64,000 nt of DNA from Hemerocallis citrina (lineage: Eukaryota > Streptophyta > Magnoliopsida > Asparagales > Asphodelaceae): contig CM030366.1 of NCBI GenBank assembly GCA_017893485.1, forward strand, positions 76,327,227 through 76,391,226, read 5' to 3'. The position numbers were made by a program, and so were the translations under genes. This document shows, piece after piece, positions 2,755 to 63,796 of this stretch; the first letter of the stretch is position 1, and each line of letters opens with the position of its first letter. Under the pieces are notes generated by a model that saw only the letters and a list, made by a program, of their open reading frames with translations, made no database searches and was not told the origin of the DNA.

Positions 2755-2900
2755 CACTACAAAAGATGTAGGAATACCCGGTGATACTATCTCGGCATTT
2801 GGGTGTTTCGCTGGGGCATTCCCCAGCGCTTTGTAAAAAAATACCAGCGGGGTCCAAATATTCCCCGGCGTTTTATAAAAAATGCTGGTGTTTGTTCCTT
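2755..2900. repeat. CACTA left TIR and subterminal repeats
   Basis: The terminal CACTACAAA is followed by repeated short motifs in both orientations (ACCCGG, CCCAGCG, CAGCGGGG, CCCCGGCG) next to TTTTATAAAA/TTTGTAAAA spacers. These match the motif set at the other end and are the usual binding region for CACTA accessory protein. Confidence 0.85.
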
Positions 2901-2939
2901 TATAAAACCCCACGCTCCCCACTTCCCTCTCTCTATTTC

Positions 2940-3165
2940 CTATTCGCGCCTTTATCTCTCTGAAGCCCTAGCTATTTCTCTTTTTTCGATTTCGCACCGA
3001 AGAATCGCCGTTCGCTCTCACCGCCGCCGCTCGCCAAACGTCGCCCGCCGCCAGCCGCTATTCGCTCTCATCACCGCCGCCGCTCGCTGCTCGCCGCCCG
3101 CCTCCCGTCGCCATTCGCTCTCATCGCCGCCTTTGCCATATCTCTCTGAAACCCCAGGTAACGAT
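2940..3165 (+). other. GC-rich leader-like segment inside CACTA element
   Basis: This Ser/Arg/Pro-coding, CGCCGCC-rich stretch stands out from its AT-rich surroundings and is followed by AAACCCCAG/GTAACGATTG, a plausible exon-intron boundary. It looks like a captured 5' untranslated exon with a first intron, but I could not assign a gene. The open frames through it are short and low-complexity. Confidence 0.4.
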
Positions 3166-3400
3166 TGAAAACCCATGTTCCCAAAATCAAATCTCTTTTT
3201 TTTATTGTTTGGATTGATTTTTTTGTTCTGAACCCTAAGAATTCCCTGTTTAATTTAGAGGAAAATCAATCATCATAGGTTTTAAATTAGGGAATGAGCT
3301 TAGCTTTCGGTTTATTGTTCTGAAACCCTAAGAATTCCATGTTTAATTTTTTGTTCTGAAACCCTAAGAATTCCATGATTTTGTTGTTCTATTTTTCCAG

Positions 3401-3500
3401 TCAGTTGAGTTCAAAGGTATTATAAAGATTGAACGCACACATAATCAGGACGCTATTCCTTTAACCCTGGGACAAGAGTTTAGTAGGTACACTGCACAGG
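3401..3500 (+). pseudogene. Captured fumarate hydratase (class II fumarase) exon
   Basis: After an acceptor-like TTTTTCCAG (ending at 3400) the frame reads [12 protein letters not shown] followed by [15 protein letters not shown] and ends YTAQ at a possible donor CAG/GTGTAC. This is the fumarase segment around the conserved GRTHTQDA...PLTLGQEF motif, which forms part of the active-site region of this homotetrameric mitochondrial/cytosolic enzyme of the TCA cycle. Two conserved positions have changed here (Gly to Glu before Arg-Thr-His, and Thr to Asn after His). Only about 33 codons are present and no other fumarase exon is visible in the element, so it is a gene fragment carried by the CACTA transposon and not a working enzyme. 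The assignment rests on motif recognition. Confidence 0.8.
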
Positions 3501-4967
3501 TGTACATACTGACTTGGCTCTAGTGGATTCGGCTTTTACATACAATGTTATGTGGTGCAGCATGATAGTTGATCTTCGTTGTTGCGCAATGCATATCACA
3601 ATTAGGTAGCAATGCATATCACAATTGTTTGTTCCAATTGGATTCCATTAAATCTAACTTATCAATTGAATGAATGGGTACATTAAGTTGTACCCGTAGT
3701 ACTATTGTTTAAGAAATGCACTTGGTTGCTAAGTCTATAAGAGGATTTAGATATTTAGGAAGTGCACTAAAAAAATGCCTTCTATTTGAGAGTATTGCTT
3801 GGGTATTGAAGTTTATGTTAGCAGATGATGGGGATTTTTTAAGAAATGTGGTAAAACTATTCTGTTATTGGTCTTTTCTTCTTTTAAATTGTGCAAATGG
3901 GTGACTGGTTAGAAATCAATTCCTCAAGTTATGAATCTACATTCATCTCAGCTTGTTATTATTGTAAGAAAAGAAGTATAGAGAACTCCAAGTTGTACAC
4001 AATATTTTAATTGATGTGTTGGATTCCTATGTGGAATCGAGTTGACAAACTGTTATGGTATGTATAATAAACGATAATTAATCTTAACAATATTTGATTC
4101 GGTGATGATGCATAGCATAACTGAATGTGCCAATTGAATACCATGCAGGAATATAGCACATCAATTACATAATGGGTAGATTAAGAAGCACTTGTAGCAC
4201 TAGATGTACTACTCTTGTAATAGATAATAATCATTTTATAATTTCTTTGTTTTTTTGGGTTGAGGAGTGGATTTGTACATGTCTTACTTTCTAAGATATT
4301 GCTATTTTAGGTATATGTTTTGAGGAAAATTTTCAATTTTGGTAGATATTTATGTTTTTTGATGAATTAATGGAGTAATGTAGACGATAAAGAACATGTG
4401 AAAGATAATATTTTTTCTTCATATGATTGGGTCTCCCCCTCAATTGTGATTTGAGTTTGTTTTCTCAACGGTTTATAGTACTTTCAGGGAAAGCATTATT
4501 AAGGAGTTGTGTGTTTGTTTTTTAAGAGAAACGTCAATATCATGCCAGGAATGAAAATTTTAGATGGTTTGGGGAAATATTTATGGCTACTTATTGGAGA
4601 CTTATTTTTTGTCAAATTATTTTCAAATGTTCTGAGTTGTTTAACTGTGGATTGTATTGTGAATAACTTCCTTATATTAAATGCATTATAAGAGCATTAT
4701 AAATTTCATCCTCGAATTTATGCATTTAAAAGAAAAAGTATTTGTTCGTGGAACATTAAATTTTACCCTCTCAAAATCCGTCTATTCACAGCTTGAATCT
4801 TTTTATAGTGTGAAATTTGAGGAATTATCTGCTATTTCATGCTCAAACTGGAAATTTTTGTTGGACCTAGGCCACCAGTTAAATTTATTACTTCCATTTT
4901 TTCATGGAGATATCTTTTGTGTGGCTTCGACTCAAAAGTTTAATCCAATGCGATTTTTTGAATACAG
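3501..4967. other. CACTA interior, no recognised gene
   Basis: AT-rich sequence with only short chance frames. It reads like intron or intergenic DNA carried along with the captured fragments. A TATCACAATT/GCAATGCATATC phrase is repeated twice near 3585-3625. I could not find ROP exon 1 or further fumarase exons here. Confidence 0.5.
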
Positions 4968-5467
4968 GATTATGTGGCAACGGTTTTAGACAATTTCAGT
5001 GCCAATGTTGTGGTTAATGGGAACACTGTTAACCTAGGTTTATGGGATACAACAGGTAAATTATCTCTCATTTGGTGGCTCTGCCAATATATCTGATGTT
5101 ATCTGTATCTTTGTTGAATTGTGTCTTCCAATCTGTTTTTTGAGAAATATGAAAAATGTGAATGAGATGTTATTCGTTAGTTGTGGTACAGGACAGGAGG
5201 ATTACAATAGATTAAGACCTTTGAGCTACCGTGGGGCTGATGTTTTTATTTTGGCTAGTTATGAGAATGTTGCTAAGAAGGTGAATGGATTTTATTTCAT
5301 TGGACACCATTATTTCTGCTCTCTGTCGTAATTGTTCTATCTCACGTGCATGCTGAATGCTAATTGTATACTGTCTTGTTTATTATTTATGTTTCATTTT
5401 CAGTGGATCCCTGAATTGAGGCACTATGCATCTTGTGTCCCAATTATTCTTGTTGGAACAAAGCTTG
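4968..5467 (+). pseudogene. Captured ROP/RAC small GTPase fragment, exons 2-4 with introns
   Basis: Three exons of a Rho-of-plants GTPase (membrane-associated switch for polarity and ROS signalling) lie in order. Exon 4968-5055 encodes [16 protein letters not shown]...GLWDTTG, the effector and DxxG (G3) region. Exon 5192-5280 encodes [18 protein letters not shown]...SYENVAKK. Exon 5404-5467 encodes [10 protein letters not shown]...VGTKL, including part of the TKxD (G4) motif. Each exon is bounded by AG and GT, and phases agree: the G of DTTG is split between exons 1 and 2 of the fragment. The junctions fall at the positions known for plant ROP genes. Exon 1 (P-loop) and the C-terminal exon are absent, the second exon lacks about seven codons (FSLISKA in the family), and Pro, Phe and Ala of the effector/G3 region are changed. 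It cannot make a working GTPase. Confidence 0.93.
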
Positions 5468-6831
5468 GTTAACTTTCTGATATTTTTGTTAGTTGCTGTA
5501 TTTGCAATTACCTTTTCTTCTTTCCTATTGTCTTTGTATTTTCCTTTTGATATTATGGTGCTTTTTCCTTCATTATGTGATCCTCCTTCACCTATATTTG
5601 GCTAAACACCTAGTAATATGCCATTTATTCCACTAATGTCTTACATCAACCTTGTTCAGCTGCATTCTATCAGCTTCATTGCAGAATATAAGATAAACTG
5701 CAATATGTAAAGAGATTTTATAAACAATCCCAAATATTTAACTTAACATAGTTTTGGTTGTTAAGTTATGGTATTTCTAGGCTTTTGTGAGAAAAAACTG
5801 ATGTTTTTGGAGCACTCACGATATAGGGATGCTCTAGTGAAGGGGTACTAAATTTTCTGATTGATTACAGTTATCCAACTTGTGGAAGAGAAAAATCCTG
5901 GACTTTCTTAGGAAAATAACTACTTGGTTGTTAAGCATTCTGCCCAAATGGATCAAATGAGTAGCATAGCCTACGTTTGAACATAATACATTTCTTGATA
6001 ATGTTGTGGCCACGATCTCTGAATTGTTATGGATCCAATTTATCTAGCTCGTCGATTGGTGGGCAAGTCTCAACATATGATTCTTTAGATACAAATCTCC
6101 TATCATCTCCTATCCATAGCTTTATATTTATTTCTACTACATATTTCTTCGAAAGTGTTAATAAGATATGTTGTGAATTCTCCTTATTGCAGATCCATTT
6201 GTTTGCAGATTCAGAAACTTTTAATTCGCTGGGTATGGATTTAACATTTCATATATTTGTGTAATATCTAATAGAAAGATGTTGCCATTTAGCTAACACA
6301 AAGTTCTCTAATCTGATTTTGAACTAAACATTGTGATATGTGATCATATTAGATATCATTTTCTTGTACTATGATTGTATCATGAACAATAATGCAACAT
6401 AAGCATGTCTTATATATTTTTTGAGAAAGACTACTTATGTTGTGTTGCAATTTTTTGAGATTTAGTTTAAGGTTTATTGTTCTATCCGCTCCAACTAATG
6501 AACAATTTTGCTATATTCAGGTAGGTGCACATGGAATAGAGAGTGAGTTAAGCCTAGTTCTCGATCAAACGATCAAATAGTGGCAAGCTTCGATAACGGA
6601 TTTAGGTATCTAATGAATCTATGCAGTGTCCATGCTTGGTTGTAAATTCTATGACAGTAGTAGTTAATTCATGAAAATGGAAGGAGGGTGACTGAAATTG
6701 TATGTAATGTGAGAGAATTGTGGTTTGTGTTGTATAAAGACTTGTATTCTTGAGTGTAGCTTGCTTGGAATGAATTGCTTATTGATTTGTATTGTATTCG
6801 AAGACTTGTAATCTTTGGGTGTACATGATAA
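5468..6831. other. CACTA interior, intron-like and 3'-like DNA, no recognised exon
   Basis: AT-rich DNA with GT at 5468 as the donor of the ROP exon before it. No conserved ROP exon 5 is visible. The 6510-6800 part, after an acceptor-like ATATTCAG, contains a short frame ending at a TAG near 6577 and then repeated CTTGTATTCTTGAGTG-like phrases resembling a 3' untranslated region; its origin is unknown. Confidence 0.4.

Positions 6832-6879
<48 letters not shown>
6832..6879. repeat. (AAT)n microsatellite
   Basis: About sixteen uninterrupted AAT units directly inside the right subterminal region of the CACTA element. Confidence 0.95.
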
Positions 6880-6889
6880 TTTTAAAAAA

Positions 6890-7158
6890 AGCCTACCCCG
6901 GCGTTTTCAAATGCCGGGGTAGATTTTTAAAATAAAAAAATATTTTTTTTTTTTTGTTTTAAAAGTGCTGGGAATTGTAACGAAAAGCGCCGGGATATCA
7001 TACAAAATCCCGGCATTGGAAAACGCTGGGAAGGACAATATTCTTCCCCGGCGGGGAAAAGGACGGCGCTTTTTAAAGCGACGGGGGATCAACCCCGGTG
7101 TTTATAAACGCTAGGAAATGTTAAAAAAATGCCGGGGAGTTCCTTCCCGTTTGTAGTG
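6890..7158. repeat. CACTA right subterminal repeats and TIR
   Basis: At least eight GCCGGG/CCCCGGCG-type motifs in both orientations, alternating with T- or A-rich spacers, end at the inverted terminus TTTGTAGTG. The last base before the AAT target duplication is 7158. Confidence 0.85.
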
Positions 7159-8512
7159 AATCTTCCACAGCAGCTCCTAAGCACTGCAGTACTAGTAACT
7201 GGAATTTCTTTCATACTTATTATTCGGCTCTCCAACTGTTCAATATCAAATAATGGGTGCGAAATTTCTAGCAAGTAGCAAGTCACTGCAATTAATAGAG
7301 TTTATACAGACCAGAAACTCTCATGGCTCCCTGCTGATAAAATTTCACCGAAAACTACCCAGCTTGGCTTCTGTTCATATACTAGCAATGAGCATGAAGG
7401 GTGAAGTCGCATTTGTTGCCCTGATAATGGCACTTCATAACCAAGTTTCTCAGATCCTGAGTACATCGAGACATTCTCCGCAAGAGATGAGAGTATTATC
7501 TTCTTTAATAATCTATCGTACGTCCCCAGTAGGTTTCTGCAGGTTCCAACCCAATAATTAGGGGAGGCAATGCTGAGTTCATAACGTAGGCAGCGTTCCA
7601 ACTCAATTACAGTATCATGACATCTCCTCATAGATTTTGCATTAATGCAGTTCTTCCTACACAACTGATTTCTTCTACGCACCTGCTCCCTTTCATTGTA
7701 CACAGAAAGAAGAATAAACAGGTCGCCCTCATGATGGCAGAACCGCAACCTGAATCAGTCTGCTTTGTGCTTGTACTCCTCGCTATCAACTCTACAGAAT
7801 ATACTGCTTGAATTTGGCATAACAACAGCAAGAATGAGACCTTCCTTTTTAAGTCCACACTGAAAAGAATCTAGAACTATCTTCCCTAATCCAGGTTCAA
7901 TGCCCAATTTGACCAATTGGCGACCTGTATCTGTAAGCTCAATAAAGTCCTCATTTTTACGGCCAATTGCACCTAACTGGGTAAGATTCTGCATGGCCTT
8001 CTCTATTGCCTTTGGGATTGGAGCATATAAAAAAAATTAAAAATTGAACATTATCCATGTTGAGAGCAAGAATCCTCAATGCTGCAAGACCAAGGTGCAC
8101 TTTCCCAATGTCGGGGTCCTGATGCATTCTCATTGATTCGAAATGGTGTTCAGAATATAGTCTAAGACACTTTTGTGGTCCTGTTCTACCTGCTCGTTGA
8201 CTGGCAGAACTTTGGCTAATCCTCCCAACCTTGAGCACATTCATTCCACTGCTAGATTCAAACAAGTTCACCTTAAACATGCCGGAGTCCACGACTTACT
8301 TATCATCGGGTATAGTAAGGGACGTCTCTGCTACATTCGTGGAGATTATAATTTTTCTCTTCCCAGAATAATTTTGTATGACACGTGTTTTATCATCATG
8401 AGAGAGTTTCCCATGCATTGGTAAGAAAACTGCTGAGGACTCACGAAAATTTTCACAAGCACATTCTACTTCCAACCGAGAAGTTAAAGAAGCAAGAATT
8501 GCAACACAACTT
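7159..8512 (-). pseudogene. DEAH11/DEAH12-like RNA helicase pseudogene (C-terminal helicase region)
   Basis: Read from about 8512 down to 7159 the minus strand follows the plant chloroplastic-annotated DEAH11/12 helicases (DEAH-box RNA helicases that also carry C-terminal RING/IBR parts). Landmarks in order: TSRLEVECACENF; PMHGKLSHDDKTRV; STNVAETSLTIPDDK; VVDSGMFKVN; ISQSSASQRAGRTGP (motif VI); NLTQLGAI; FCHHEGDLF; NAKSMRRC; LHPSCSLLVYEQKPSW. The gene is dead: a TAA replaces Tyr after IPDDK, motif VI has lost about three residues so the second half of QRxGRxGR is missing, there is a frameshift near 7995-8040, a TGA (from CGA) sits near 7750, and a frameshift lies near 7300. No intron is evident between 8512 and 7159 apart from these breaks. 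A CACTA element splits it at 7159. Confidence 0.9.
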
Positions 8513-10539: not shown

Positions 10540-13513
10540 TGAATTTTAGATTCTGGTGCATCACATCATCTCACTAGTAATCAGACACTGTTTACCACCT
10601 GCACAATACTTTCCTCTCACTCTCCATCTCTACACACAGCTGATGGCTCACCACTTCTTATTACACACTCAGGGACAATTAACTCTCCCACTCTCACATT
10701 ACCACATGTTCTCTATGCTCCTAATTTATCAATAAACCTTATTTCTATTAGTGTGTTGTGCGATAGTGGTCTTGTCGTTACTTTTGACTCTTTATGTTGT
10801 TCTATTACTGATTCCTCCACCAGTGAGGAGTTTGGGCGTGCTAGTAGTCAGGGTCGTCTATATTATCTAGATTTTCTTCGTGCCCATCACTATCCTTCTA
10901 GTTTTGCCGGTATTATTTTCTCTGATGCTGATCTATGGCATAGACGTTGAGGTTATATTAGCGCATCATGACTCCAGACTATAGCTCATAGTGGTGCCCT
11001 TGGTTTTCTCACTTTAAAATATTTATCTGATTGTCAGGGTTGTCATTTAGCCAAACACATTGCCCTACCCTTTAGTCACAAAAGAACTTCTGAAACCACT
11101 CACCCTTTTCAACTTTTTCATTCTGACATATAGGGATCCTCTTCCGTACCTTCGTGGAAAGGCTATCTCTATTATATTGCCTTCGTCGTTGACTTCACTA
11201 GACATACATGGATTTTTCTTATGTGTCAGCGATCTGAGATACCTGACATTTACCATTTCTTTACAACTATGATTCACACTCAGTTCGGTGTGCGCATTAA
11301 GAATTTTCGATCGGATGGTGCACGTGAGTACACTTCCACCACTATGAGAACGATCCTTTAGTCTCACGGCACCCTTTTTCAGCAATCATGCCCTCACACA
11401 CATGAGCAGAATGATGTAGCTGAATGCAAGCATCGTCACATCCTTGAGACGGCTCGCGCTATTTTACTCTCCTCTTCCACACCTTGTTCTTTCTAGGCTG
11501 AAGCTATCATGACCTCTGTTAGTCTCATCAACATTACTCCCTCGTCTGCCGTAGCTGGTACGATGCCTTATGAGGCTCTTTATCATTCACCTCCCGACTA
11601 CAGTATGCTTCGTACTTTTGGGTGCACTTGTTACGTCCTTCTCCCTCCTACTGAGAGCACGAAGCTCTCCGCTCGTGCTGCCAAGTGCGTTCACCTAGGT
11701 CTCAGTCCTGAATACAAAGGTTATCGTTGTTTTGATCAATCAGCGGGTCGTGTCCGCATTTCTCGACATGTATCTTTTGTGGAAGACTTCCCTTACTACC
11801 TGACTTCCCCTGAGGATACTAGATTTCTCTATTCTCCAGTTGTTGCTAGCCCCCCGACTTTATCTTTCCACATTCCTTTTGATCCCACTCCTCTGGCTCC
11901 ATTCACATCTCCTGCAGTCCTTACACCTGTTGTTCCCCCTACCGAAACACCACCTGCATCCCTACAGCAGCCAGCACCCATCCCACCTACTTCCCCACCA
12001 ACACATGCACCTACTCCACCGTCCTCACCCCCACACCCTTTCAGTCCACCACCTCTTCGTCAGTCTACCCGTTCCACTTCTGGTATTCCACCGGCACGTT
12101 ATACACCTGATGCCACTGGTCCTTCTGACCAGTTTGATTTTGTCACCCTAGCTTCCTACTCACCACAGTTTCATGCATATCTCACTGCTATACACTCTAC
12201 ACGTGAGCCCAGAACCTATCAAGAAGCAATTCAATATCCTTAATGAAGGAAAGCTATTGCAGAGGAGATCAGTGCATTTGATCAGACTGGCACTTGGGAT
12301 GTTGTTCCTCTGCCATAGGGCGTTCAGCCTACTAGTTGCAAGTGGATCTTCAAGGTCAAATATCAACCTGATGGATCTATTGAGCGGCACAAGGCTCGTC
12401 TAGTAGCCCAAGGATTTACTCAGGAGCATGACATTGATTATGATGAGACCTTTGCTCCCATTGCACAGATGACTACTGTTTGCACTTTTCTTACTGTTGC
12501 AGCCATCCGCCAATGGCTGTTATACCAGATGTACGTAAAGAATACTTTTCTTCATGGTACCTTATCTGAGGTTGTTTATATGGATCCTCCTCCTGGCCTC
12601 CCTACTCCTCCTCGTCATGTTTGCCGGTTGCGTCAGGCTATATATGGTTTGAAGCAGGCTCCTCAAGCCTGGTTTGAGTGTTTTCGCCTTGTCATCACCA
12701 AGGCTGGTTTTAGTCAGAGTTCTTAGGACCATTCTATGTTTATGTGGTCATCACCGCAGGGGAGGGTAATTCTACTGCTCTATGTTGACGATACGATCAT
12801 TACTGCGGATGACTCTGCAGGCATTACATTCACCCAGAAATACCTTCATCAGCAGTTCCATATGAAAGACCTTGGCAGACTACATTATTTTCTGGGCCTA
12901 GAGATTGCTCATGGATCTCGGGGAATACTCATTTCTCAACAGAAATAAACATCAGATATTATCTCCGCTGCATGCCTTTCTGACAGTAGATCAACCGATA
13001 CACCCTTAGAGCTTGAAGTGAATCTTCGTCCCACTGATGGTGAGCACCTTCCTGATCCCACTAGATACAGACAGATTGTTGGACAGCTTGTCTACTTATG
13101 CGTGACTAGACCCGATATTGCTCACGCAGTCAGTGTTGTCAGTCAGTTTGTTTCTGCTCTTCTTCGGATTCTCAAATATCTTCGAGGCACTATTAATCGC
13201 TCATTATTCATGCCTGCTACATCAAAACTAGATCTGAGTGCATATTCTGATTCAGATTGGATAGGTGATCCTACTACCAGACGGTCTACCATCGATTTCG
13301 GTCTATTTCTTGGTAATTCGCTGATCTCATGGCAAAGTAAGAAACAGGTAGTTGTTGCATGTTCTTCGACTGAAGCTGAGTACAGAGCAGTGGCAGCTAC
13401 TACTAGAGAGATTGTTCATGTTCGTTGGCTGTTATCAGATATGGGTGTCCTCTTCATTGTGATAACCGGAGTGCATTGCACATTGCAAGCAACCCGGTCT
13501 TTCATGAGCGAAC
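10540..13513 (+). pseudogene. Ty1/copia pol: protease, integrase, RT, RNase H (5' part)
   Basis: Protease: ILDSGASHHLT at about 10543, with the expected Trp before it changed to TGA at 10540. Integrase: a WHRR...ISAS and CQGCHLA zinc-binding end near 10935-11055, FHSD near 11125, NFRSDGAREY near 11300 and the [10 protein letters not shown] segment near 11410, then the IN C-terminus FGCTCYVLLPP. RT: KWIFKVKYQPDG, LHGTLSEVVYMDPPPG and the intact active site YVDD at 12781-12792. RNase H: SDSDWIGDP, ISWQSKKQ, STEAEYRAVA near 13245-13390. Stops at 10938, 11132, 11359, 11495, 12241, 12317, 12724 and 12946 break the frame. The reading frame is cut at 13513 by the nested element and resumes at 22231. 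Confidence 0.95.
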
Positions 13514-13518
13514 GAAGC
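13514..13518. repeat. Target duplication GAAGC, left copy
   Basis: GAAGC at 13514-13518 matches 22231-22235 and marks a single clean insertion into copia RNase H. Confidence 0.97.
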
Positions 13519-16500
13519 TGTCACGCCCCGCTTCCCAAAATACGGAAATACGAGTACGTGACGAAGCCCAGCGAATGATTTTTACATCATCCATAAGCTG
13601 TAGGATCGACTCAGCATCATAACAAGAATATAACCAGATTTATATATAACCAAGCATGCATGAATAATTTATTAAGCAACAGAAACAATTTAAACAAATA
13701 ATAATATTCAAATAGTTCTCATGTCTGGATCAAGTGTAAACTCGGAAACAAGTCTTATACAGCAGAAGAAATAAATACCTTAAGAAAAGCAACAAGTCCT
13801 TGCTCCAAGCAAAACCTGAAATGTCTGCTCGCCAATTCCAGCAGATAACTTGTCTCCCAAGTCTGCTTAATAAATATAAACAGAAAAACGAAGGGGAAAC
13901 AAGAGAAAATGCCCTTAGTGCAAGCTAGGGCCACAAATAGTAAAAGCAAGTACAAGAAAGGGGAAAACAAGATTTGGAACCAAGAATAAACCGAGTTATA
14001 AGAAGTAGTGACAAATTCAAGTCTAGCTGGCAAGAGGGAACATCATAACGACTAGATTGGATAACAACTGCTAGTGGTGAATCACTCGTCAGGTATACTT
14101 ATAGGGGTATTTAATATCAAGCGACAACCTCAAACCTAGTGTCATATGTTATTTTGAATGTCAGGTTCCAAATGTCAAGTCCAAGTCCAAGTTCCAGGCT
14201 TTAAGTCTCAGGTATCATATTTCATGTATCATATCATCAGGTATCAAGTGACAGGTGTCCAGTTCAAGTCTTGTAATTATTACTATCTAGGTAGCACGAC
14301 ATGCATCCATTATACTACATGGTTGCTACAGTCAAATCAATTGCGCTTAGACTTAGTAATGGAGTCTATAGGGCGGTGTACTCAGGCATCAAACTAGCAG
14401 GTGATCAACCATGTGCTCTAGAGGTGGCCCCCGTAGGCTCTAGAGGTGGCCCCCGTCACCCATGACGTGGCACTTAGTTCTACGTGGCACTTAGTTCCAG
14501 GTGATTTCAAACATACATCATGTAAACATATAATGGGCTCTAGAGGTGGCCCCCGTAGGCTCTAGAGGTGGCCCCCGTCACCCATGACGTGGCACTTAGT
14601 TCTACGTGGCACTTAGTTCCATTTAACATACAACTTGGGAAACACGGGCCCCCTTCCGAGTACACTTACCTATGTTGTCCACTCTATAGTCTTTCCCATA
14701 ACCCCGGCTTATTACATTTGTCCAGGCAGATTTTGTGTTCTTGTATTTATACATGTGGAACAGGGTTGAAATAATATAAGTTAATTCTAAGAAAAATTGG
14801 AGATGTCCTATAGGGTGTCCAGCAACTACATATAAAATTTCGTGTCAAACGCTCGCTGTTTACATAGCTAAATTAATTTGTAAAGAAAATATATACAGCA
14901 GTTTTTACAGAACTGCGCCTACTGACACAGCTTCAGTATAACAGCCATATCTCCTAGACCGTAACTCCAAATTCAATCATTCTGGAGTCTATCGACATCT
15001 ACACATCCTGATCTACGTTTTGTATTCAGGCCTCGGGCCCAAATTCCAATGTTAAAAGGGTCGAAACCTCAAAAGAAAATCCAGACAGCAACATAGGGAA
15101 ATAATTCACTAATGTAGATTTCATAGAATTATGTAATTTGGTGTCTAAAATCATTATGTGGCACAAATACATGGTAATGGGAATCAAACAGCGAATAATA
15201 GTATTTTTCAAGTCATAATAATCATAAATTGCCAAAACACTAAATTTATATGCGTCTACAATTTCTAGGGGTCCTTAATTCATATGTCTATGTGATTCGC
15301 AAGTTCAAGGAGATAAAGGAGTCCAATTGAATTATTATTTAATGCGAGGAAGTTTTGTGACTCTTAGACTGGTGAGTTTGAAGGTTCAAATTGTTTTACT
15401 ATGATATTCAAAGAGAGTCACAAACTAACTACATGTGGTATTTCAAAGAGACTTGTACTAGGACAATAAGATGTACAAGGTTACTTGCCTTAAATCGACG
15501 GTTAAAATCTCCGCTTGTTGAAGCAACTGAGAAGAAAAGTCCCCGGAAATGTCCTCGAAATGCGCGTGCAAAAATATACCAAAGATCGAGTTTTCCTCGC
15601 ACACACGATCGGTCCAAAACAGCGTGTAGCGCTCGGATCCGGTGCGGGTAGAACACGGAACAGCAAAACAGGCGAATCAGATCGCTGGGAAGCAGCTGAT
15701 CTGAGGCCAGAACAGCGAACACAGCTCCGGATCTGGTGTGGACGAACACGGGACAGCAATCACGCGCACGGATCTTGAAGAGATCTGACGGCTACGAATC
15801 GCTCCCGCTCTTTTCTCCTTCTTCTTCGTTCTTCTTCTTCGTTCGAAACAGAGCGAGAGAGAGGGGTGTGCAGCGGCGATGGCGGGGTTTCTTCGACGGC
15901 GGCGCTACGTCGGGAAGCGACGCGGCGATGGGGCGGACGACGGCGATGGGGCGGCGCGTGTGCGACGGGAGGCGTCGAGTGGTGCAGGCGAGTGGGGATG
16001 GGTTCGGAGGTGGTGGGTTCTACGGTTGGAGAGATGGCGAAGGCGACGGAAGTTGGAGTTGTGGTGGTGCTGGCTGCGGGGGGGGGGGGGGGGGGGTCGA
16101 CGAGGATGGCGGTGGTCGGAGGTGAGTCGAAGGAGGTGGGTTTGGTTAGCGGCGGGTGTGATTAGAGATTAGGTTTTAACAGTAGAGATTAGGGTTAGGG
16201 TAGGGTTTATATACTAGGTTAGTGGGTTTGCGGGTTAAAGGGTTTAGGGGATCCGTTTCAAAAAGGGCCCAACAGAAGAAATGGTCAAAAAGCACAATAA
16301 TGGGGATTAGAAAGATAAAAGAGAAGAATCGGGCTATTCCTCATGAAGAACGGTGCAAATGGCACACAATAGAATTTGATAAAAGGACCCAAAATTTGAG
16401 TTGAGACAAAAATAATAATTTTATTCGAATAGAAATAAAATACGGATCTCAAATAGATGAAAGAGTACAATATGGCAAAATAGAGTATAAAATACAAATG

Positions 16501-28407: not shown

Positions 28408-29535
28408 ACAGGATGTCCAAGCACAAGGTTCACATTGACTGTAAGGAGAAGAAGGTGACCTTAGCCATGCCCGAGAAACCAGAGATCGTGTTTCAAGGGA
28501 AGAAGAAAAACGGAAAGATTTTGGCGGCTACAGTCGGGAGTAAGGTGCCAAAAGAAGTCAAGGGGATGCCCATTATACGAGACTTTCCATTTGTATTTTG
28601 GAGGAGTTACTAGGGTTACCCCCACCAAGGGATGTAGAGTTCAGTGTGACCCAGCCAGGCAGCGCACCTGTATCAAAGACGTCGTATCGTATGGCACCGG
28701 TGGAACAGAATGAAGTCAAGAAGCAAATAGAGGAATTGCTGCAGAAGGGACTCATCAGGCCTAGTGCCTCTCCTTGGGGAGCACTGGTACTACTAGTCAA
28801 GAAGGACGGGTCATCAAGGATGTATATTGACTATCGAAAATTGAACAAAGTCACAGTCCAAAACAAATATCCAATTCCCAGGATCGACGACTTGTTCGAT
28901 CAGCTACAAGGAGCCGTAGTGTTCTCAGATATCGATCTACAATTGGGCTACCATCAGGCCCGTGTCAAGGAGGAAGACATACTAAAGACAGCTTTCAGGA
29001 CGTGGCATGGGCACTATGAATTCCTAGTGATGTTGTTTGGACCGACTAACACCCCAGCGATCTTCGTGGACATAATGAACTGAATTCTACGGCCATTTAT
29101 TGACTCGTTCGGGGTGGTCTTCAACGATGACATTCTACTGTATTTCACAGACGAAGGAGGATCACGTGATGCACCTGACAGCAGTTTTGAGGAAGCTTCA
29201 GGAGCATTAGTTGTATGCCAAGATATCCAAATGCAAGTTATGGAAGTCGAAAGTAGCTTTCCTCGGCCATGTTCTTTCTAAGGAGGGAGTGGCCACTGAC
29301 CCACAAAGATAGAGGTGGTGAAGGCTTGTCCTCAGCCAAGGACAGTGAAGGAAGTAAGGAGCTTTTTGGGTCTGACTGGGTACTACAAGAAGTTCATTCA
29401 AGACTATGCCAAGATTGCGGTACCACTCACGGCCCTGACCAGGAAGGACAAGATATTTGAATGGGCTGACAAGTGTGAAGCAGGTTTTCAGGAACTGAAG
29501 GAGGTGCAGGGAACTGCGATGCTTTCACTAGCATA
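28408..29535 (+). pseudogene. Chromovirus pol fragment: protease/RT linker and RT, start of RNase H
   Basis: After a linker (VHIDCKEKKVTL near 28428, [11 protein letters not shown] near 28566) a frameshift leads into [16 protein letters not shown] (28600), [47 protein letters not shown] and the [12 protein letters not shown] region (about 28920). The active-site box reads VVFNDDILLYF near 29115, so both Asp residues remain but Ile is Asn. Stop TGA at 29081 and frameshifts follow. The last part, [20 protein letters not shown] (29345-29405), is the RT-RNase H connection of Tekay/Reina chromoviruses. The frame ends in a TAG at 29533. Integrase is absent. Confidence 0.93.
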
Positions 29536-38665: not shown

Positions 38666-38774
38666 CCCTTGTAGATACCCTTCTGTAAATAATAAGATGT
38701 AATCTGCACCTCGTGCCTTGTTTTGTAAAGTCAATATGATGTGATCGTTTACGCTTTTGGCCTCATGCCAGCTT

Positions 38775-39135
38775 TCTTAAAAACAAGTTTGGGGCTCGAC
38801 GCTCGAGTATCACTGCGAGCCACACCAAGCTTCTCCTACAAGGTTTGGGGCTCGACGCTCGGGTGTCACCGCGAGCCACTCCAAGCTTCTCCTACAAGGT
38901 TTGGGGCTCGACGCTCGGATGTCACCGTGAGCCACTCCAAGCTTCTCCTACAAGGTTACAGGCTTGACGCTCAGATGTCACCGAGAGCCACACAAATCTT
39001 CTCCTACAAGGTTTGGGGCTCGATGCTCGGATGTCACCGCGAGCCACTCAAAGCTTCTCCTACAAGGTTGGGGGCTCGACGCTCGGATGTCACCATGAGC
39101 CACTCCAAGCTTCTCCTACAAGATTTGGGGCTCGA
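38775..39135. repeat. Minisatellite array 1, 56-bp unit
   Basis: About six units of AAGGTTTGGGGCTCGACGCT then CGGATGTCACCGCGAGCCAC and TCCAAGCTTCTCCTAC, exactly 56 bases apart (for example 38841 and 38897). It is the same unit as array 3. Confidence 0.95.
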
Positions 39136-40378
39136 CCTCGAGCAAGGCCTTGGCCTTTTCAAGTCCTGCGATCTTTACGCTCGGCGATGACCTCCAGCTA
39201 TACATGCCAGCTTCTCTTAAGGTATGGGGGCTCGGCATCGACCTCGAGAAAGGCCTTGGTTTTCCAAGCCCTACGACCTCTACGCTCAGCGATGACCTCC
39301 AGCTACACTCATACTACCTATCTTAGAACAGGTATGGGAGCTCGGCATCGACCTCAAGCAAGGCCTTGGCTTTTTCAAGCCCTGCGATCTTTACACTCGG
39401 CGATGAACTCCAGCTACACATGCCAGCTTCTCCTAATGTATGGGGGCTCGGCATCGACCTCGAGCAAGGTCTCTAATTTTTCAAGCCCTGCGACCTCTAC
39501 ACTCGGTGATGACCTCCAGCTACACTCATACTACCTATCTTAGAACAGGTATGGGGGGTCGGCATCGACCTCGAGCAAGGCCTTGTCTTTTTCAAGTCCT
39601 GCGATCTTTACGCCCGGCGATGACCTTCAGCTACACTCATGTCAGCTTCTCCTAAGGTATGGGGGCTCGGCATCGACCACGAGCAAGGCCTCGGCTTTTT
39701 CAAGCCCTACGACCTTTACGCTCGGCGATCACCTCCAGCTACACTCATAATACCTATCTTAGAATAGGTATGGGGGCTCGGCATCGACCTCGAGCAAGGC
39801 CTTGGCTTTCTCAAGCCCTGTGACCTTTACGCTCGGCGATGACCTCCAGCTACACTCATGCCAGCATTTCCTAAGGTATGGGGGCTCGCCATCGACCTCG
39901 AGCAAGGACTCGGCTTTTTCAAGCCCTGCGACCTTTAAGCTCGTCGATGACCTCTAGTGCACTCATACTACCTATCTTAGAACAGGTATGGGGGCTCAGC
40001 ATCGACCTCGAGCAAGGCCTTGGCTTTTTCAAGCCCTGTGATCTTTACGCTCGGCGATGACCTCCAGCTACACTCATGCCAGCTTCTCCTAAGTATGGGG
40101 GCTCGGCATCGACCTCGAGCAAGGCCTCAGCTTTTTCATGCCCTGTGATCTTTATGCTCAGCGATAACCTCCAGCTACACTCTTACTACCTATCTTAGAA
40201 CAGGTATGGGGGCTCGGCATCGACCTCGAGCAAGACCTTGGCTTTTTCAAGCCCTGCGACCTTTACGCTCAACAATGACCTACAGCTACACTTATTCTAG
40301 CTTTCTTAAAAATGACATGGGGCCTCAACATCGACCTCAAGCAAGGCCACACTCGGCGATGGCCTCGAACTACGCTCC
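39136..40378. repeat. Minisatellite array 2, about 109-bp unit in alternating dimers
   Basis: Eleven units start GGTATGGGGGCTCGGCATCG and run through GACCTCGAGCAAGGCC, CAAGCCCTGCGACC and CGGCGATGACCTCCAGCTA. Ends alternate strictly between GCCAGCTTCTCCTAA and CTACCTATCTTAGAACA, giving a dimeric higher-order period of about 218 bp. Confidence 0.93.
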
Positions 40379-40583
40379 TGCCAGTCTCACTTGACCAATT
40401 ATCAAAGTTAAGAAATCGAAGTTTCATTACTCATGAAGCGCCGCAAATGGCCACACGATACAATAAAGATATTACAAATCACTCGGCTTAAAACTCAAAT
40501 TCTGTGCTTCCCACGGGACCCTCGTGGCCAATGCCACCCACCTCAAGCCCTCTAGAGCGAAACCTTCCCCCTGCATGCTCCAC
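40379..40583. other. Spacer between array 2 and antisense segment
   Basis: Non-repeat sequence with CTCGGCTTAAAACTCAAATTC and an AATAAAGATATT stretch that on the opposite strand may end the antisense transcript; no gene. Confidence 0.35.
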
Positions 40584-41051
40584 CTATACAGCTAGTAAGG
40601 ACGCCCCGGCAACGGAACTCTGCGCGTCGACAGGCCTCGCCATTTCCAGATAAAAGGCCGGAGAAGGACCCAATATAGAACAGCTTGCTCCCTCGAACGG
40701 ACTGAACCGATGTTGAACCATGCCTAGCATAAGCTTCAACCTCCGAATCTCCAACTCCTTCTCCACGACGACCTCGCAAAGAAAGGACTCTGAAGCCGGT
40801 CGCCTGGTGGAGGCATTCGAGATTGACCAGTTCATCTCGACACTCCCCCATTCCCGGTCTGCTATAGCCTTCTTCAGGCGAGCGGCTTCTAGGCTGAGCT
40901 TCTTAGACTTGTTCATAAAATAGTTTACCGTGACCTCTCAATCACGAGCTTGCTTACGATGGTAAGTCAGCACACTCTCCTTGGACCCCAGCTTATTTCG
41001 GAGTCGGAAGACCTCTGCGGAACATAGGTCGGCGCCAATGGCCTCGTGCGT
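40584..41051 (-). pseudogene. Antisense coiled-coil segment, possible extra exon
   Basis: After an acceptor-like TTCCCTCTTCTTGATAG on the minus strand (ending at 41052) a frame reads THEAIGADLCSAEVF, LRNKLGSKESVLTYHRKQAR, a TGA (Arg in all likelihood), then NKSKKLSLEAARLKK and VEKELEIRRLKLMLGMVQHR. Heptad-like Leu/Lys/Glu composition suggests a coiled coil. It resembles the C-terminal part of antisense proteins of Tat elements. Because the main antisense gene seems to stop at 41221, this could be an alternative 3' exon or a separate duplicate. No function is claimed. Confidence 0.45.
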
Positions 41052-41688
41052 CTATCAAGAAGAGGGAAAAAACAACGGGTCAATAAGAAGCTTGCGAAAA
41101 ACTACAAGTCACAGAGGATCGGCCAAAAATCTTTTCTTTTATAAATTCAAAATTTTGGATCACAAAAAAGTGGTGGCCAGTCCGCGCGAGGCAAATACAA
41201 GTCTAAGTAAAATTCCTAAACTACTTTTTAGAGGGGGACGGCACCTTTTCGACAGCCGGATCGCCCCTGGCCTCCTCCAGATGAGGGTCCTCCATCTCTT
41301 CCTCGTCCTCCCCGCCGGGCATCGGTGGATGCACGGGAAGCCGCTACCCGTAGTGAAGCTGGTCGACCCAAGCCTCCGGATAAAGCTGTAGGAAGTGCTC
41401 CTTGGCCTTGGCGTAGGCTTCGTCCTGAGCCAGGATTAGAGTGTCCGCCAAGGTGTTCTATAGCTCCTCAGCCTCCGCCTAGGCCTTAGCCTGAAAATGC
41501 GCCAGCTCGTTCGCGAGATGATCTTGCAGCGAGGCCATTTGATCTTAGAAGACCACCTGGGCTGACTGGGACTCCGTCAGCTTGTCTTTCAGACAAGTTG
41601 CCTTACGAAAATACTTCTCAGCGTTCTTCCTCTCGACAACGACCTCCTTCTTCAGGCACTTGTGGAAGTGTTGCCCATGAAGCAATGC

Positions 41689-41757
41689 CTGGCTGAGGAA
41701 GATCAAGTTAGAAAAATCCCAAAAATTCTAAGCCTAAAGCGAATGCCAAACACTTAC
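41689..41757 (-). other. Intron of antisense gene
   Basis: Donor TCA/GTAAGTG, acceptor TTGATCTTCCTCAGCCAG/GCATTG; splicing there keeps codon phase zero on both sides. 69 bases. The upstream AG (41693) would shift the frame. Confidence 0.7.
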
Positions 41758-42209
41758 TGAAATGTGCGCCTGAGCCCACCTCATGTAGGCCATCTCGGAC
41801 TTCTCCGACGCTAGAGTCATCTGATCCCGCTCCATGGCGAGATGCTCTACCACCTCCAGCGCCACCGGTCCTTCAGTCAGGGTATCACCGGCCTTGACCC
41901 CCCAGTCGGGGGCGTGCGGCATCATGCCCTGCCTACCCGCCATCTTCTCGACATTGGGATGAAGTGACGGGAGCCCCTTCTCCGAGACGGCAACTACTTT
42001 CTTACTACCGGAGCTTGCCCCCGGTTCCTTCGTCGACCTCGACGAGTGGTGGTGCTTCTTTTTCCTCTTTGAGGGTGGCTCCGAAGGCCCTGAGGCCGCT
42101 CCTTTATTAGGCCCCATGGCCGAGGCAGCCTTCTTCTCCTGTACGGCCCTCCTTTTGGCGGCCAAAGCCACCAAGGCCTGTCGGTTGTCGAGCTACTTTG
42201 CAGACATCT

Positions 42210-42280
42210 CTACGAAAAGAAAAAAGGAAAAATGTTAACACGAAGGCATGAAGATAAATAGATTAGAAACAAAAACATAC
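42210..42280 (-). other. Intron of antisense gene
   Basis: Donor CCCCA/GTATGTTTTT, a TAAC branch-like motif and acceptor TTTTTCTTTTCGTAG/AGATG. 71 bases. It joins SPVDP to KMSAK in frame. Confidence 0.75.
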
Positions 42281-43484
42281 TGGGGTCGACTGGGCTCAGT
42301 CCGGCTCGGTCCAGATGCAACTCCGTGACGTGCGGCCACCCTATGCTATGCCCTTCCAAAATCTTCTCTACAGTTGCCCACTTTATCCGTTAAGTCACTA
42401 CTCCTCGGGGGCTTATGGTTCGGCCTACTAAAATTCCAAACCGTTGGAATTTTCCAAGGTTTGTCACTTCGGAAGATAAAGTACTTCTCCTTCCATCCTT
42501 TAATGGAGTTCGGGTGGCCGTGCATCACCCTCTTGTGAGGACGCAACGAGATGTAAAAAATCCCCTCCATGTCTCCGAGCGAGCTCATCCTTTGGAAGGC
42601 ACGGAAGTATGCGAGCCTCGGTTTGATCCCCTTCTCCTGGCACTTCAGGATGAAGCAGACCAAGTGTTTCCACGAGTAGGGGCCATACTGCATTGGACTC
42701 AACTCTCCCCATTTCAACACCCTCTTAATAAATGGGTGCAACGGCAGCCTCAATCCCGAGACGAAGGCGTCCTCGGGAAACATGCAGAAGCTCGACTCCA
42801 GCACTGAGGTTGAACGAATTCCAGGGTTCGGCACCAGAAGTTCGAATTCCTTCAGAATGAAGTAGGTCGCCCTTAAGATAGGCAGGTATTCTGCCCTCAA
42901 AGCACACTGGATGTTGTCCATCTTGATCATGTACCGACCCAACTCCCGTAGCAATGACGTAAACATGAAAAGCCCCTCCACGCCGTCGGGATACATCCTG
43001 ATCGACCCCGGGTATTTATTGGACAGGGGGGAAACTTGAACCCAGGCTCGGGTCCATATTTGTGTGGCTCGCCTGGACTATCGGGACGAATCCTCTTCAT
43101 TTTTCTCCTATGGGAAAGAGGCTTCCTCTCCGGAGATGGGGTCGATAATGGGGGCAGAGGTGGAAGATCTGCTTCTTCCTCAGCTATCTTTCCCGATGTT
43201 CCTCCTTCCCCTTCTCCCCAATCGTTGCCTCTCTCGGTTCCTCGTTCGGACCCCTCCTGGTCGTCCTCCTCAACAAGCTCCTCTCCCTCAGAGCCTCCTT
43301 CCTTATGCTCACCCTCCTCAACAAGCTCCTCTTCCGGCTTACGGATTCGTAAAGGGGGCACGTTATAAATCACGACACCCTCGCCCCCAGCTCCTAACTC
43401 CGAATGGACCTCTTCCTTCACTTCAAATTCATCAAGAGACCACGATGTCCAGCTTGCCTCGGAGCCGGACTGAGAATGGGACAT

Positions 43485-43849
43485 TACGAAACAAAAATAC
43501 TAACCTAATATACCGGGAAACGTGAAGATCACTAAAAAATGATCGCCAACGACTATGAAAGAAACTTCTGTTATCTAGGGATTGAGTGCAAGGTGAAGAA
43601 ATGAAGGGAAGGGTGGGAGATTTATAATATGGGAAGGGACTCCTCGAATTCCACAAGGAGATATAACCATTGGATCTTGATCATCAAGATCTAACGGCCA
43701 CCAGGATCTGAAATGCTTCGATTCTCACGCCCATGACGTCAGCCTAGAGCATAAATGTGGCGACAGCTCGTCAAACGTGGCCAACCACTCGAGTACTGCA
43801 CCTTTTTCTATGCCACTGCTCCACCTTCCTCCCAAGACAGAAGAACAAG
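43485..43849. other. Spacer upstream of antisense gene
   Basis: On the minus strand, the CCTTCCCATATTATAAATCTC stretch (plus 43610-43630) is a possible TATA region for the antisense gene, about 130 bases before the ATG at 43484. Otherwise no gene is seen. Confidence 0.4.
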
Positions 43850-46570
43850 CTCGAAGCTTGATGCTCGGATGTCACTGCAAGCCACACAAAGTCTTTTCCA
43901 ATAAGTCTTGGGGCTCGAAGCTCGGATGTCACCGCCAGCCACTCCAAGCTTCTCCTACAAATTTTGCGGCTCGACACTCGGATGTCACCACGAGCCACTT
44001 CAAACATCTCCTACAATGTTTGGGGCTCGATGCTCGGATGTCACCGTAAGCCCCTCCAAGTTTCTCCTACAAGGTTTGGGGCTCAACGCTCGGATGTCAC
44101 TGCGAGCCACTCCAAGCCTCTCTTACAAGGTTTGGGGCTCGACGTTCGGATGTCACCGCAAGCCACTCCATGCTTCTCCTACAAAGTTTGGGGCTCGACA
44201 CTCGGATGTCATCATGAGCCATTCCAAGCTTCTCCTACAAGGTTTGGTGCTCGACGCTCAGATGTCACCGCGAGCCACACCAGGCTTTTCCAACAAATCT
44301 TGGGGCTCGGAGCCCGACTGTAATTTCAAGTCATACCAAGACTTTTTCAACAAGTCTTGAGGCGCAGAGCTAGGTTGTAATCTCAAGCCACACCAAGACT
44401 TTCCCAACAAGTCATGGGGCTCAGAGCTCGGTAGTGAATTCGAGCCACACCAAGACTTTTCCAATAAGTCTTGGGGCTCGGAGCTCGGATGTCACCGCGA
44501 GCCACTCCAAGCTTCTCCTACAAGGTTTGGGGCTCGACCCTCGGATGTCACCGCGAGCCACTCCAAGCTTCTCCTACAATGTTTGGGGATCAGAGCTCAG
44601 ATGTCACCGCGAGCCACTCTAAGCTTCTCTTACAAAGTTTGGTGCTCGACGCACGGATGTCACCACGAGCCCCTCTAAGCTTCTCCTACAAGGTTTGGGG
44701 CTCGACGCTCGAATGTCACCGCGAGCCACTCCAATCTTCTCCTACAAGCGTGGTGCTCGATGCTCGAATGACACCTTCAGCCGCACCAAGCTTCTCCTAA
44801 AAAACATGGGGCCCGGAGCTCGGATGTCACTGCGAGCCACACCAAGGTTCTCCTACAAGTGTGGGGCTCGATGCTTGGATGACACCGCAAGCCTCACCAA
44901 GCTTCTCCAACAAGTTTCGTGGCTCGACGCTCGGATGTCACCACGTGCCACACCAGGCTTTTCCAACAAGTCTTGGGGCTCAGAGCTCGGATGTCACCGT
45001 GAGCCACTCCAAGCTTCTCCTACAAAGTTTGGGGCTCTTTGCTCAGATGTCACCGCGAGCCACTCCAGCCTTCTCCTACAAGGTTTGGGGCTTAATGCTC
45101 GGATGTCACCGCGAGCCACTCCAAACTTCTCCTACAAGCGTGGGGCTCGATGCTCGGATGACACCGCGAGCCACACCAAGCCTCTCCTAAAAGACTTGGG
45201 GCTCGGAGCTCGGATGTCACCGCGAGCCACACCAAGGCTCTCCTACAAGCGTGGTGCTCGATGCTCGGATGACACCGCAAGCCACACCACGCTTCTCCAA
45301 CAAGTTTCGTGGCTCGATGCTCGGATGTCACCACGTGCCACACCAGGCTTTTCCAACAAGTCTTGAGGCTCGGAGCACGGATGTCACCGCGAGCCACTCC
45401 AAGCTTCTCCTACAATGTTTTGGGCTCGACACTCGAATGTCACCGCGAACCACTCCAAGCTTCTCCTACAAGATTTGGGGCTCGACGCTCGGATGTCACC
45501 GCGAGCCACTCCAAGTCTCTCCTACAAGGTTTGGGGCTCGACACTCGGATGTCACCGCGAGCCACTCCAAACTTCTCGTATAAGGTTTGGGGCTCGATGC
45601 TTGGATGTCACCGCAAGCCCCTCAAAGCTTCTCCTACAAGGTTTGGTGCTCGACGCTCAGATGTCACCGCAAGCCACTCTAAGGTTCTCCTACAAGCATG
45701 GCTCGATGCTCGGATGTCACCGCGAGCCACACCAGGCTTTTCCAACAAGTCTTGGGGCTCAGAGCTCGGCTGTAATTTTCAGTCACACCAAGCTTTTCCA
45801 ACAAGTCTTGGGGCTCGGAGCTCTGCTGTAATTTCGAGTCGCACCAAGACATTTCCAACAAGTCTAGGGGCGTGGAGCTCGGTTGTAATCTCGAGCCACA
45901 CCAAGAACTTCCAAACAAGTCTTGAGGCTCGGTGCTCGGTAGTGAATTTGAGCCACACCAAGACTTTTCCAACAAGTCTTGGGGCTCGGAGCTTGGATGT
46001 CACCGCGAGCCACTCCAAGCTTCTCCTACAAGGTTTGGGGCTCGATGCTCGGATTTCACCGCGAGCCACTCGAAGCTTCTCCTACAAATTTTGGGCTCGG
46101 AGCTCGGATGTCACCGCGAGCCACTCCAAGCTTATCCTACAAAGTTTAGGGCTCGACGCTCGGATGTCACCACGAGCCATTCCAAGCTTCTCTTACAAGG
46201 TTTGGGGCTCGACGCTCGAATATCACCACCAGCCACTCCAAGCTTCTCCTACAAGCATGGGGCTCGACGCTCAGATAACACGGTGAGGCACACCGAGCTT
46301 CTCCTAAAAACTTGGGGTTCAGAGCTCGGATGTCACCGCGAGCCATACTGAGGCTCTCCTACAAGCGTGGGGCTCGACACTCGGATGACACCGCGAGCCA
46401 CACGAAGCTTTTCCAACAAGTTTCGTGGCTCGACGCTCGGATGTGACCACGTGCCACACCAGGATTTTCCAACTAGTCTTGGGGCTCGGAGCTTGGTTGT
46501 AATTTCGAGTCACACCAAGACTTTCCAGCAAGTCTTGGGGCTCGGCACTCGGTGGTGACCTCGAGCCACC
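43850..46570. repeat. Minisatellite array 3, 56-bp unit, about 48 copies
   Basis: The same unit as array 1 with subfamilies: GTTTGGGGCTCGACGCTCGG (common), GCGTGGGGCTCGATGCTCGG with GATGACACC, TTTCGTGGCTCGACG with ACCACGTGCC, and TCTTGGGGCTCGGAGCTCGG with TGTAATTTCGAG. A five-unit block in fixed order recurs at about 44741, 45136 and 46250. All three frames stay open over long stretches, which is why long frames appear here; they are not genes. Confidence 0.95.
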
Positions 46571-60474: not shown

Positions 60475-61231
60475 GTATCATCCTAGTCCATTCCTTTCCT
60501 GCCCATGTCTTATTTGATTCCGGGGCGACCCACTCCTTCGTTTCCTCTCGCTTTGTGGATCAGCACCAGTTGGAGTGCAGTAATATGCAGACAGCTTGGA
60601 ATATCACCACAGGTGGCGGTGTTGTTATTTGCTCTAAGGAGTGCAGGCAGAGTCCTTTGGTTATTAGGGGCAGAGATTTCAAAGCAGACCTAATAGTGAT
60701 TGGCAATTCAGGGTTTGATGTAATTCTCGGCTTGAATTGGTTGGGGGAGTCTCATGCTGTTATTGATTGCTGAGCAAAGAAGGTTGTATTCAGGATTCCG
60801 GAGCATGATGAGTTTGAATTCCATGCTGGGGAAACACCTCTTGGGCGTGGTAAGAAGGTGGCAGATGAGGAAGATTGTGCAATGGAGTTGTACACAGGCT
60901 GTGAGGCTGTGCCTCTTGTAGTGCAGGAATTCCTGGATGTGTTCCCAGAGGAATTTCCCGGGTTACCTCCAAATCGAGAAGTGGAGTTCGGCATTGAGGT
61001 TCAGCCGGGTACAGTACCGATATCGAAGAGCCCGTACAGGATGGCGCCAATCAAGCTTGCAGAGCTGAAGGTACAGATTCATGGTCTATTGGATTTGGGT
61101 TTCATCAGGCCCAGTGTATCACCGTGGGGAGCTCCTGTGCTGTTCGTCAATAAAAAGGACGGAAGCCGCAGGTTTTGCATGGATTACCGAGAGATGAACA
61201 GTGTCACCGTGAAGAATCGATATCACTACCC
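60475..61231 (+). pseudogene. Tekay protease and RT N-terminus
   Basis: LFDSGATHSFVSSRF at about 60510 is the intact aspartic protease site, followed by FDVILGLNWL. A TGA at 60771 follows IDC. After it, the connection reads [40 protein letters not shown] and [21 protein letters not shown] one-base frameshift near 61225 changes frame just before the RT palm. Confidence 0.94.
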
Positions 61232-63619: not shown

Positions 63620-63796
63620 TAGCCAGACTTGTCTTGTGAGATTCCGCCAGTTACTATCTTGGACAGGCGTGAGAAGGTGTTGAAGAATAAAGTTATAAAA
63701 CTGGTTCGAGTTGCATGGAATCCTCACTCGCCGGGTGAGTCGACTTGGGAATTGGAAGAGGAGATCCAGAAGAAGTTCCCGCATCTGTTTCAGTAG
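63620..63796 (+). pseudogene. Tekay chromodomain
   Basis: After a TAG at 63620 (Gln expected) the frame reads PDLSCEIPPVTILDRREKVL, NKVIKLVRVAWNPHSPGEST and WELEEEIQKKFPHLFQ, stop TAG at 63794. ILDRxExxLRNK...W...ExxTWExExxM is the Tekay C-terminal chromodomain, which steers insertion to heterochromatin marked with H3K9 methylation. Confidence 0.93.

Follow-up and report, generated by a model that had tools for sequence, protein, structure and literature searches.

A 64,000-nucleotide stretch of the Hemerocallis citrina genome (contig CM030366.1, positions 76,327,227 to 76,391,226, referred to here as the window) contains a 4404-bp non-autonomous element of the CACTA type, which carries a fumarase exon and three exons of a ROP GTPase gene between terminal modules common to other elements of the genome. 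The features of the element and its borders, in window coordinates, are the following.

2752-2754, no strand: target-site duplication, left copy (AAT), read directly from the sequence
2755-7158, plus strand: entire non-autonomous CACTA element, 4404 bp (ends, genome search, Pfam)
2755-3380, plus strand: 5' module (element 1-626), common to other elements, with terminal and subterminal repeats and a GC-rich, ATG-free putative exon 1
2936-3157, plus strand: putative untranslated exon 1, with an assumed start and a GT donor at its end (aligned 5' modules)
3376-3585, plus strand: captured piece from a decayed fumarase locus (C5:80814848-80815057, 98% identical)
3401-3499, plus strand: fumarase exon, 33 codons, AG and GT borders kept (PDB, Pfam)
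3586-3603, plus strand: first copy of an 18-bp templated duplication of ROP sequence where the fumarase and ROP parts meet (second copy 3609-3626)
3600-6023, plus strand: captured ROP gene piece, from intron 1 through intron 4, its main block 93% identical to the C8 gene
4968-5055, plus strand: ROP exon (DYV...DTTG)
5192-5280, plus strand: ROP exon, lacking 21 bp in frame in the window copy only
5404-5467, plus strand: ROP exon (WIPELRHY...GTKL)
6019-6023, plus strand: 5-bp microhomology CTGAA where the ROP piece joins the 3' module, present in the ROP donor intron as well as in the module
6019-7158, plus strand: 3' module (element 3265-4404), common to other elements, containing putative acceptors at two places (AG ahead of 6193 and of 6521)
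7159-7161, no strand: target-site duplication, right copy (AAT), read directly from the sequence

The element starts with CACTACAAAA and finishes with TTTGTAGTG, its CACTA terminal inverted repeats reading CACTACAAA at the 5' end and the complement at the 3' end, with matching 9-bp ends. On the plus strand of the window CACTACAA has a single occurrence, at 2755; TTGTAGTG occurs four times, the copy ending at 7158 being the one that closes the element. Subterminal repeats of the CCCCGGCG type (repeat families D5 and I4) lie close to both ends. Direct reading of ends and flanks bears out the perfect termini and AAT duplication described in the original prediction, which was made from the sequence alone. 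The same prediction placed no transposase in the interior, and none of the transposase families of Pfam was found there in six frames at E-values up to 1, a search that a transposase diverged past the reach of Pfam could escape. The matches returned were Lyase_1 and weak Ras pieces; minus-strand matches to ODV-E18, WH_Egal and Sigma_reg_N, all under the Pfam cut-offs, were dismissed. With its CACTA ends, 3-bp duplication, host gene pieces, several copies and lack of a transposase family, the segment 2755-7158 is a Pack-CACTA element. It is inserted into the minus-strand remnant of a DEAH-box helicase gene, recognised at window 7302-7748 and in the element flanks (PDB DHX8, 2.1e-7), and joining the flanks across the element gives a helicase-like reading with several stops and one frame change.

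Both parts of the cargo are recognisable from their translations. The exon at 3401-3499 matches fumarate hydratases in PDB (best E 3.2e-9) and the Pfam family Lyase_1 of the fumarase superfamily (1.5e-6, 28.3 bits against a cut-off of 27), and for the three spliced ROP exons plant ROP/RAC structures rank before animal RAC (PDB; best ARAC5, E 1.1e-41). The similarity search that the original prediction had proposed was therefore positive for both genes. Its three ROP exons with preserved splice sites (4968-5467) hold as proposed, and its fumarase exon is correct in identity and one base too long, ending at 3499 instead of 3500. The captured exons are bordered by AG and GT, and all of them lie in the sense orientation, in agreement with the single orientation that had been predicted.

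Further copies were sought in a genome of 3.78 Gb in 701 contigs, where the best 40 of 978 candidate places were scored with the whole element, so that counts are lower bounds. On C5 a full-length match of 91% identity carries both cargo pieces, and on C7 a broken match carries ROP only, being without element positions 592-972, the part that holds the fumarase exon; the C7 copy also contains a nested insertion with an 8-bp duplication. The check for additional copies with the same cargo thus gives a transduplicated family. ROP splice borders are intact in all three ROP-bearing copies, and the 21-bp deletion of ROP exon 2 is found in the window copy only, the C5 and C7 copies being free of it. 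The target duplications of the copies at C9:76329981-76334384 (in the window), C5:278796084-278800494 and C7:24447880-24452875 are different (AAT, CCT and ATT), and because each copy has a duplication of its own, the cargo moved as a unit: a single chimeric ancestor reached at least three sites. Matching flanking triplets are likewise present in eight of eight other elements whose ends were fixed before the triplets were viewed; the ends of L015, L016, L017, L021 and L029 were paired with the triplet's help, and these elements were excluded as tests of target duplication.

The donors of both pieces were found, which agrees with the prediction that a single CACTA element had taken exons from two unrelated genes. 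For ROP, the best 40 of 307 places were scored with window 3600-6020 as probe (counts again being lower bounds), and the strong long matches among them are the three elements, C8, C649 and C10. The C8 locus has ROP blocks spanning residues 1-164 of an Arabidopsis-type ROP probe, with no stops in the exons, in a stretch that excludes the last part of the gene. Of the gap-free sites with identical bases in the two paralogues, C649 and C10, 70 join all three copies with C8 and three join the three copies alone. Judged by this comparison, the ROP piece of ~2.4 kb, reaching from intron 1 into intron 4, derives from the apparently intact C8 gene. About 455 bp of the donor intron are absent from all three copies, and since the C649 and C10 genes, when matched to the element, show a gap of similar size at the same point, this segment was lost by the elements. 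The intron piece also includes, at window ~3994-4202, an inverted-repeat-like stretch matching about 30 other genomic places at 74-80%, many of them on both strands; it resembles a small miniature inverted-repeat transposable element (MITE), and may have come along with the donor intron.

For fumarase, all eight candidate places found with a probe of window 3370-3610 were scored. Apart from the window and the C5 copy, the segment matches C5:80.81 Mb (98%), C4 (87%), C8 (81%) and C10 (79%), and two pieces match at C2:59.84 Mb. Several fumarase blocks, located with a protein probe, are matched at C5:80.81 Mb, two of them with a stop, and stops are also present in the C4 locus. The motif IKIERTH is found in the element and at C5:80.81 Mb, and IKIGRTH in C8 and C10. 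The C8 and C10 genes, which have no stop in the matched blocks, were rejected as donors on their lower identities, and because of the stops and IKIERTH at C5:80.81 Mb the source of the fumarase piece is, on this reading of the sequences, the decayed locus on C5.

The order of the two captures is indicated by an element on C2, in which an exact CACTA 5' end is followed by fumarase sequence like that of the decayed locus and then by 3' module sequence, with no ROP sequence. Aligned to the decayed locus, the C2 element gives 166 and 1486 columns at 97% and 95%; its 5' module is shortened, and ~2.7 kb are inserted within the fumarase part. In an alignment with three host fumarase loci, one derived base is common to the window, the C5 copy and the C2 element, and two other columns differing from the C5 fumarase locus are ambiguous for that grouping. 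At the end of the window's fumarase part these three elements read TTGCGC, and the decayed locus reads TTGCAT. As the C2 element has fumarase without ROP, the captures look sequential, and this comparison suggests a well-supported stepwise order, fumarase first and ROP second, with one further element as its basis.

The joints themselves are shared between copies. The CTGAA joint between ROP and the 3' module is identical in three of three, and the 18-bp ROP duplication is common to the window and C5 copies, the C7 copy being without this region. This duplication looks as if copying had begun, slipped back and restarted. From the ends, target duplications, donors, shared joints and three insertions observed here, and from the loss of coding constraint described below, we regard it as highly probable that the finished element is a Pack-CACTA built in steps and then moved. 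An ancestral non-autonomous element, already with a 5' and a 3' module, would have acquired ~1.6 kb of the decayed fumarase locus between the two, and in one descendant ~2.4 kb of the ROP gene would then have replaced most of the fumarase piece, on balance probably by template switching during repair of a break or gap within the element. Transposase supplied in trans would have moved the completed chimera to at least three sites, where transcription may start in the element's own 5' module, with splicing to the 3' module, the product being most likely non-coding and decaying.

Several observations weigh against this reconstruction. Six variable ROP sites group C8 with just one or two of the three copies, the capture order depends on one C2 element, one clear shared base and the shared TTGCGC, and the 3' end of the C2 element was not found in the 8 kb read. 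The same fumarase stretch could also have been captured independently, twice, which is less likely. A 5-bp microhomology can arise by chance, and no autonomous partner was present among the 12 elements scanned for Pfam transposase families. Moreover, a joint like CTGAA could be left by joint mobilisation, the model proposed for Arabidopsis Pack-CACTA according to a review and a later paper, in which two related CACTA elements flank a donor fragment, lose their inner ends and move as one (PMC8903248, PMC13317346). Recombination between subfamily ends has occurred in this genome, L019, L021 and L022 having a different 5' end joined to the same 3' module, which speaks for that model. Exact-end scans, which decayed ends would escape, found no CACTA termini in 9.9 kb round the ROP donor or in 8.0 kb round the fumarase locus, and the 18-bp templated restart at the fumarase/ROP joint suits template switching better, so that joint mobilisation seems a possible but doubtful origin for this element. 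That the cargo is a chance similarity or an assembly join, and not captured DNA, can be given almost no credence: E-values of 1.1e-41 and 3.2e-9 oppose the former, the introns too align to the donor, and identical joints recur on other chromosomes.

Stepwise capture leaves the question of what the finished chimera could express. Among 11 aligned 5' modules, 10 retain the GT donor that closes the GC-rich stretch. Of ten aligned 3' modules, nine retain the TATATTCAG acceptor (the C5 copy has lost it), and eight extend as far as the upstream acceptor AG, which seven of them retain. A chimeric transcript is thus possible, and the modelled spliced RNA would be 917 nt long. A functional chimeric gene, producing a single selected protein from its fumarase and ROP exons, would fit the single stop-free frame of the spliced fumarase and ROP exons and the intact ROP splice borders of all three copies. 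That frame contains no AUG, however, the assumed 222-nt exon 1 is without ATG, and frames opening with AUG reach at most 35 aa in the modelled RNA. The divergence of the ROP sequences points the same way. Their introns differ by 3.5-4.2% between copies and C8, by 2.8-3.2% among copies and by 10.7-11.1% between C8 and its paralogues, whereas their exons differ by 3.1-4.1% between copies and C8, by 6.2-7.1% among copies and by 0.4-0.8% among host genes. Changes relative to the C8 donor alter the amino acid in 6/10, 6/10 and 6/8 cases in the copies, values that, given the small numbers, are near the simulated neutral fraction of 0.75, unlike the 0/1 and 0/2 of the host paralogues. The ROP exons, by these sequence measures, have lost coding constraint. 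With exons diverging as fast as introns or faster, amino-acid-changing fractions close to neutral and a cargo frame that has no AUG, there is no support for a selected chimeric protein, which was rejected as very improbable.

The cargo of related elements is also found in the sense orientation. Twelve elements were scanned with Pfam, on the plus strand in all 12 and on the minus strand in 11 (L015 left out), the relatives at E up to 0.01; L009, L010 and L032 were compared by BLAST instead. No transposase family was found in the 12 (in L015, plus strand only). The scanned elements have the 5' module, the 3' module or both in common with the window element, with the exception of L029, which shares just ~110 and 97 terminal bases. 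On the plus strand, L019, L021 and L022 contain an amino-acid permease (best 2.2e-16) and DUF2854 (best 1.2e-4, under the Pfam cut-off), and L016 contains a midasin lid domain (4.4e-8; PDB midasin 4.5e-7) and an AAA piece (3.4e-5). A plus-strand zinc ribbon is present in L015 (0.0016), L016 (8e-5) and L017 (3e-4), its exon in L016 being RPB9-like, with PDB matches to RNA polymerase subunits (best 4.6e-11), of which the next is subunit 9A of polymerases II, IV and V (3.6e-10). The plus strand of L026 matches Cyclin_C (0.0013, under the Pfam cut-off), and the cyclin exon has no PDB match; L014, L020, L023 and L029 gave no plus-strand Pfam match. Matches on the minus strand of the 11 elements are weak ones alone, in the window element and in L014, where two weak DUF3915 matches were set aside for want of a passing stretch. 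By eye, an AG acceptor stands ahead of the relatives' cargo exons, save the zinc-ribbon exon of L015.

All recognised cargo is therefore sense, in five of five well-supported host genes and in seven of seven when the two Pfam matches below cut-off are included; the one-sided chance of this, 0.03 or 0.008, was computed post hoc on a small sample of best-matching elements. It is conceivable, though we think it rather unlikely, that the family acts as a mobile exon trap: the first exon, with its splice donor, and the acceptor-bearing terminal exons would come from the element ends, and sense, cleanly splicing captures would persist, so that the element's own transcripts run through.

The 5' end pattern has 105 occurrences in the genome with up to two mismatches, against none for a reversed control, and many of the 105 are a related GATATTGG variant. 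This variant was considered as the autonomous partner and rejected, as the complete 4.3-kb L029 (244-4539) has no six-frame Pfam match; in L030 no complete pair of ends was found for it. A nested insertion of ~0.9 kb occupies positions 1224-2146 of the L010 element; its ends are of the TAGGGGTGG type, its duplication is 8 bp long (AATGGAGT), and we take it to be hAT-like. Elsewhere in the window, long open frames of repeated units (MSPRATPSFSYK...) at ~38700-46400 suggest, by eye, a tandem repeat region, and translated frames resembling copia and gypsy polyproteins were noted, also by eye, at 11509-13578, 28598-29083 and 60858-63622.

The element is a clear new example of a process known from other plants, of which the following is said in excerpts of the papers cited. 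Pack-CACTA elements, among the Pack-TYPE transposons, are described in Arabidopsis and maize, and have in common with the present element CACTA ends, 3-bp target duplications, the lack of a transposase, host gene pieces and several copies (PMC8903248, PMC13317346). Here, unlike there, a single genome preserves both donors, an intermediate and the decayed source locus, and one joint suggests template switching and not joint mobilisation alone. The 5.7-kb soybean CACTA element Tgm-Express1 likewise contains captured exons, as intron and exon pieces of five unrelated genes; its splice sites are used, and it lies in an F3H intron, with isolated transcripts starting at the F3H1 promoter (PMC1947982), whereas in H. 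citrina two host genes are recognised, from DNA alone. In the Tpn1 family of Japanese morning glory the terminal regions are also conserved and captured regions of host genes take the place of internal sequence, and some members give chimeric transcripts (PMC5105172). A putative autonomous element, TpnA1, is described in that family, in contrast to the 12 elements scanned here. CACTA-like elements of Chenopodium carry host gene pieces too, such as Neprosin and AP2, but also have transposase domains (PMC8978399), which the window element lacks. Our literature search returned no paper linking CACTA capture to an exon trap, none combining CACTA, sequential gene capture and sense orientation, and none on transposon-captured gene fragments in the same transcriptional orientation; for CACTA with fumarase, the matches, as far as their excerpts go, were solely on aluminium tolerance and pear acids.

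This is an unusually readable case of gene capture, with both donors, an element holding the first cargo only, shared joints and three insertions in one genome, which makes it possible to test models of gene acquisition by DNA transposons. It is also a warning for annotators, since cargo-carrying elements resemble genes. If true genome-wide, the sense bias would suggest selection on the element's own transcript.

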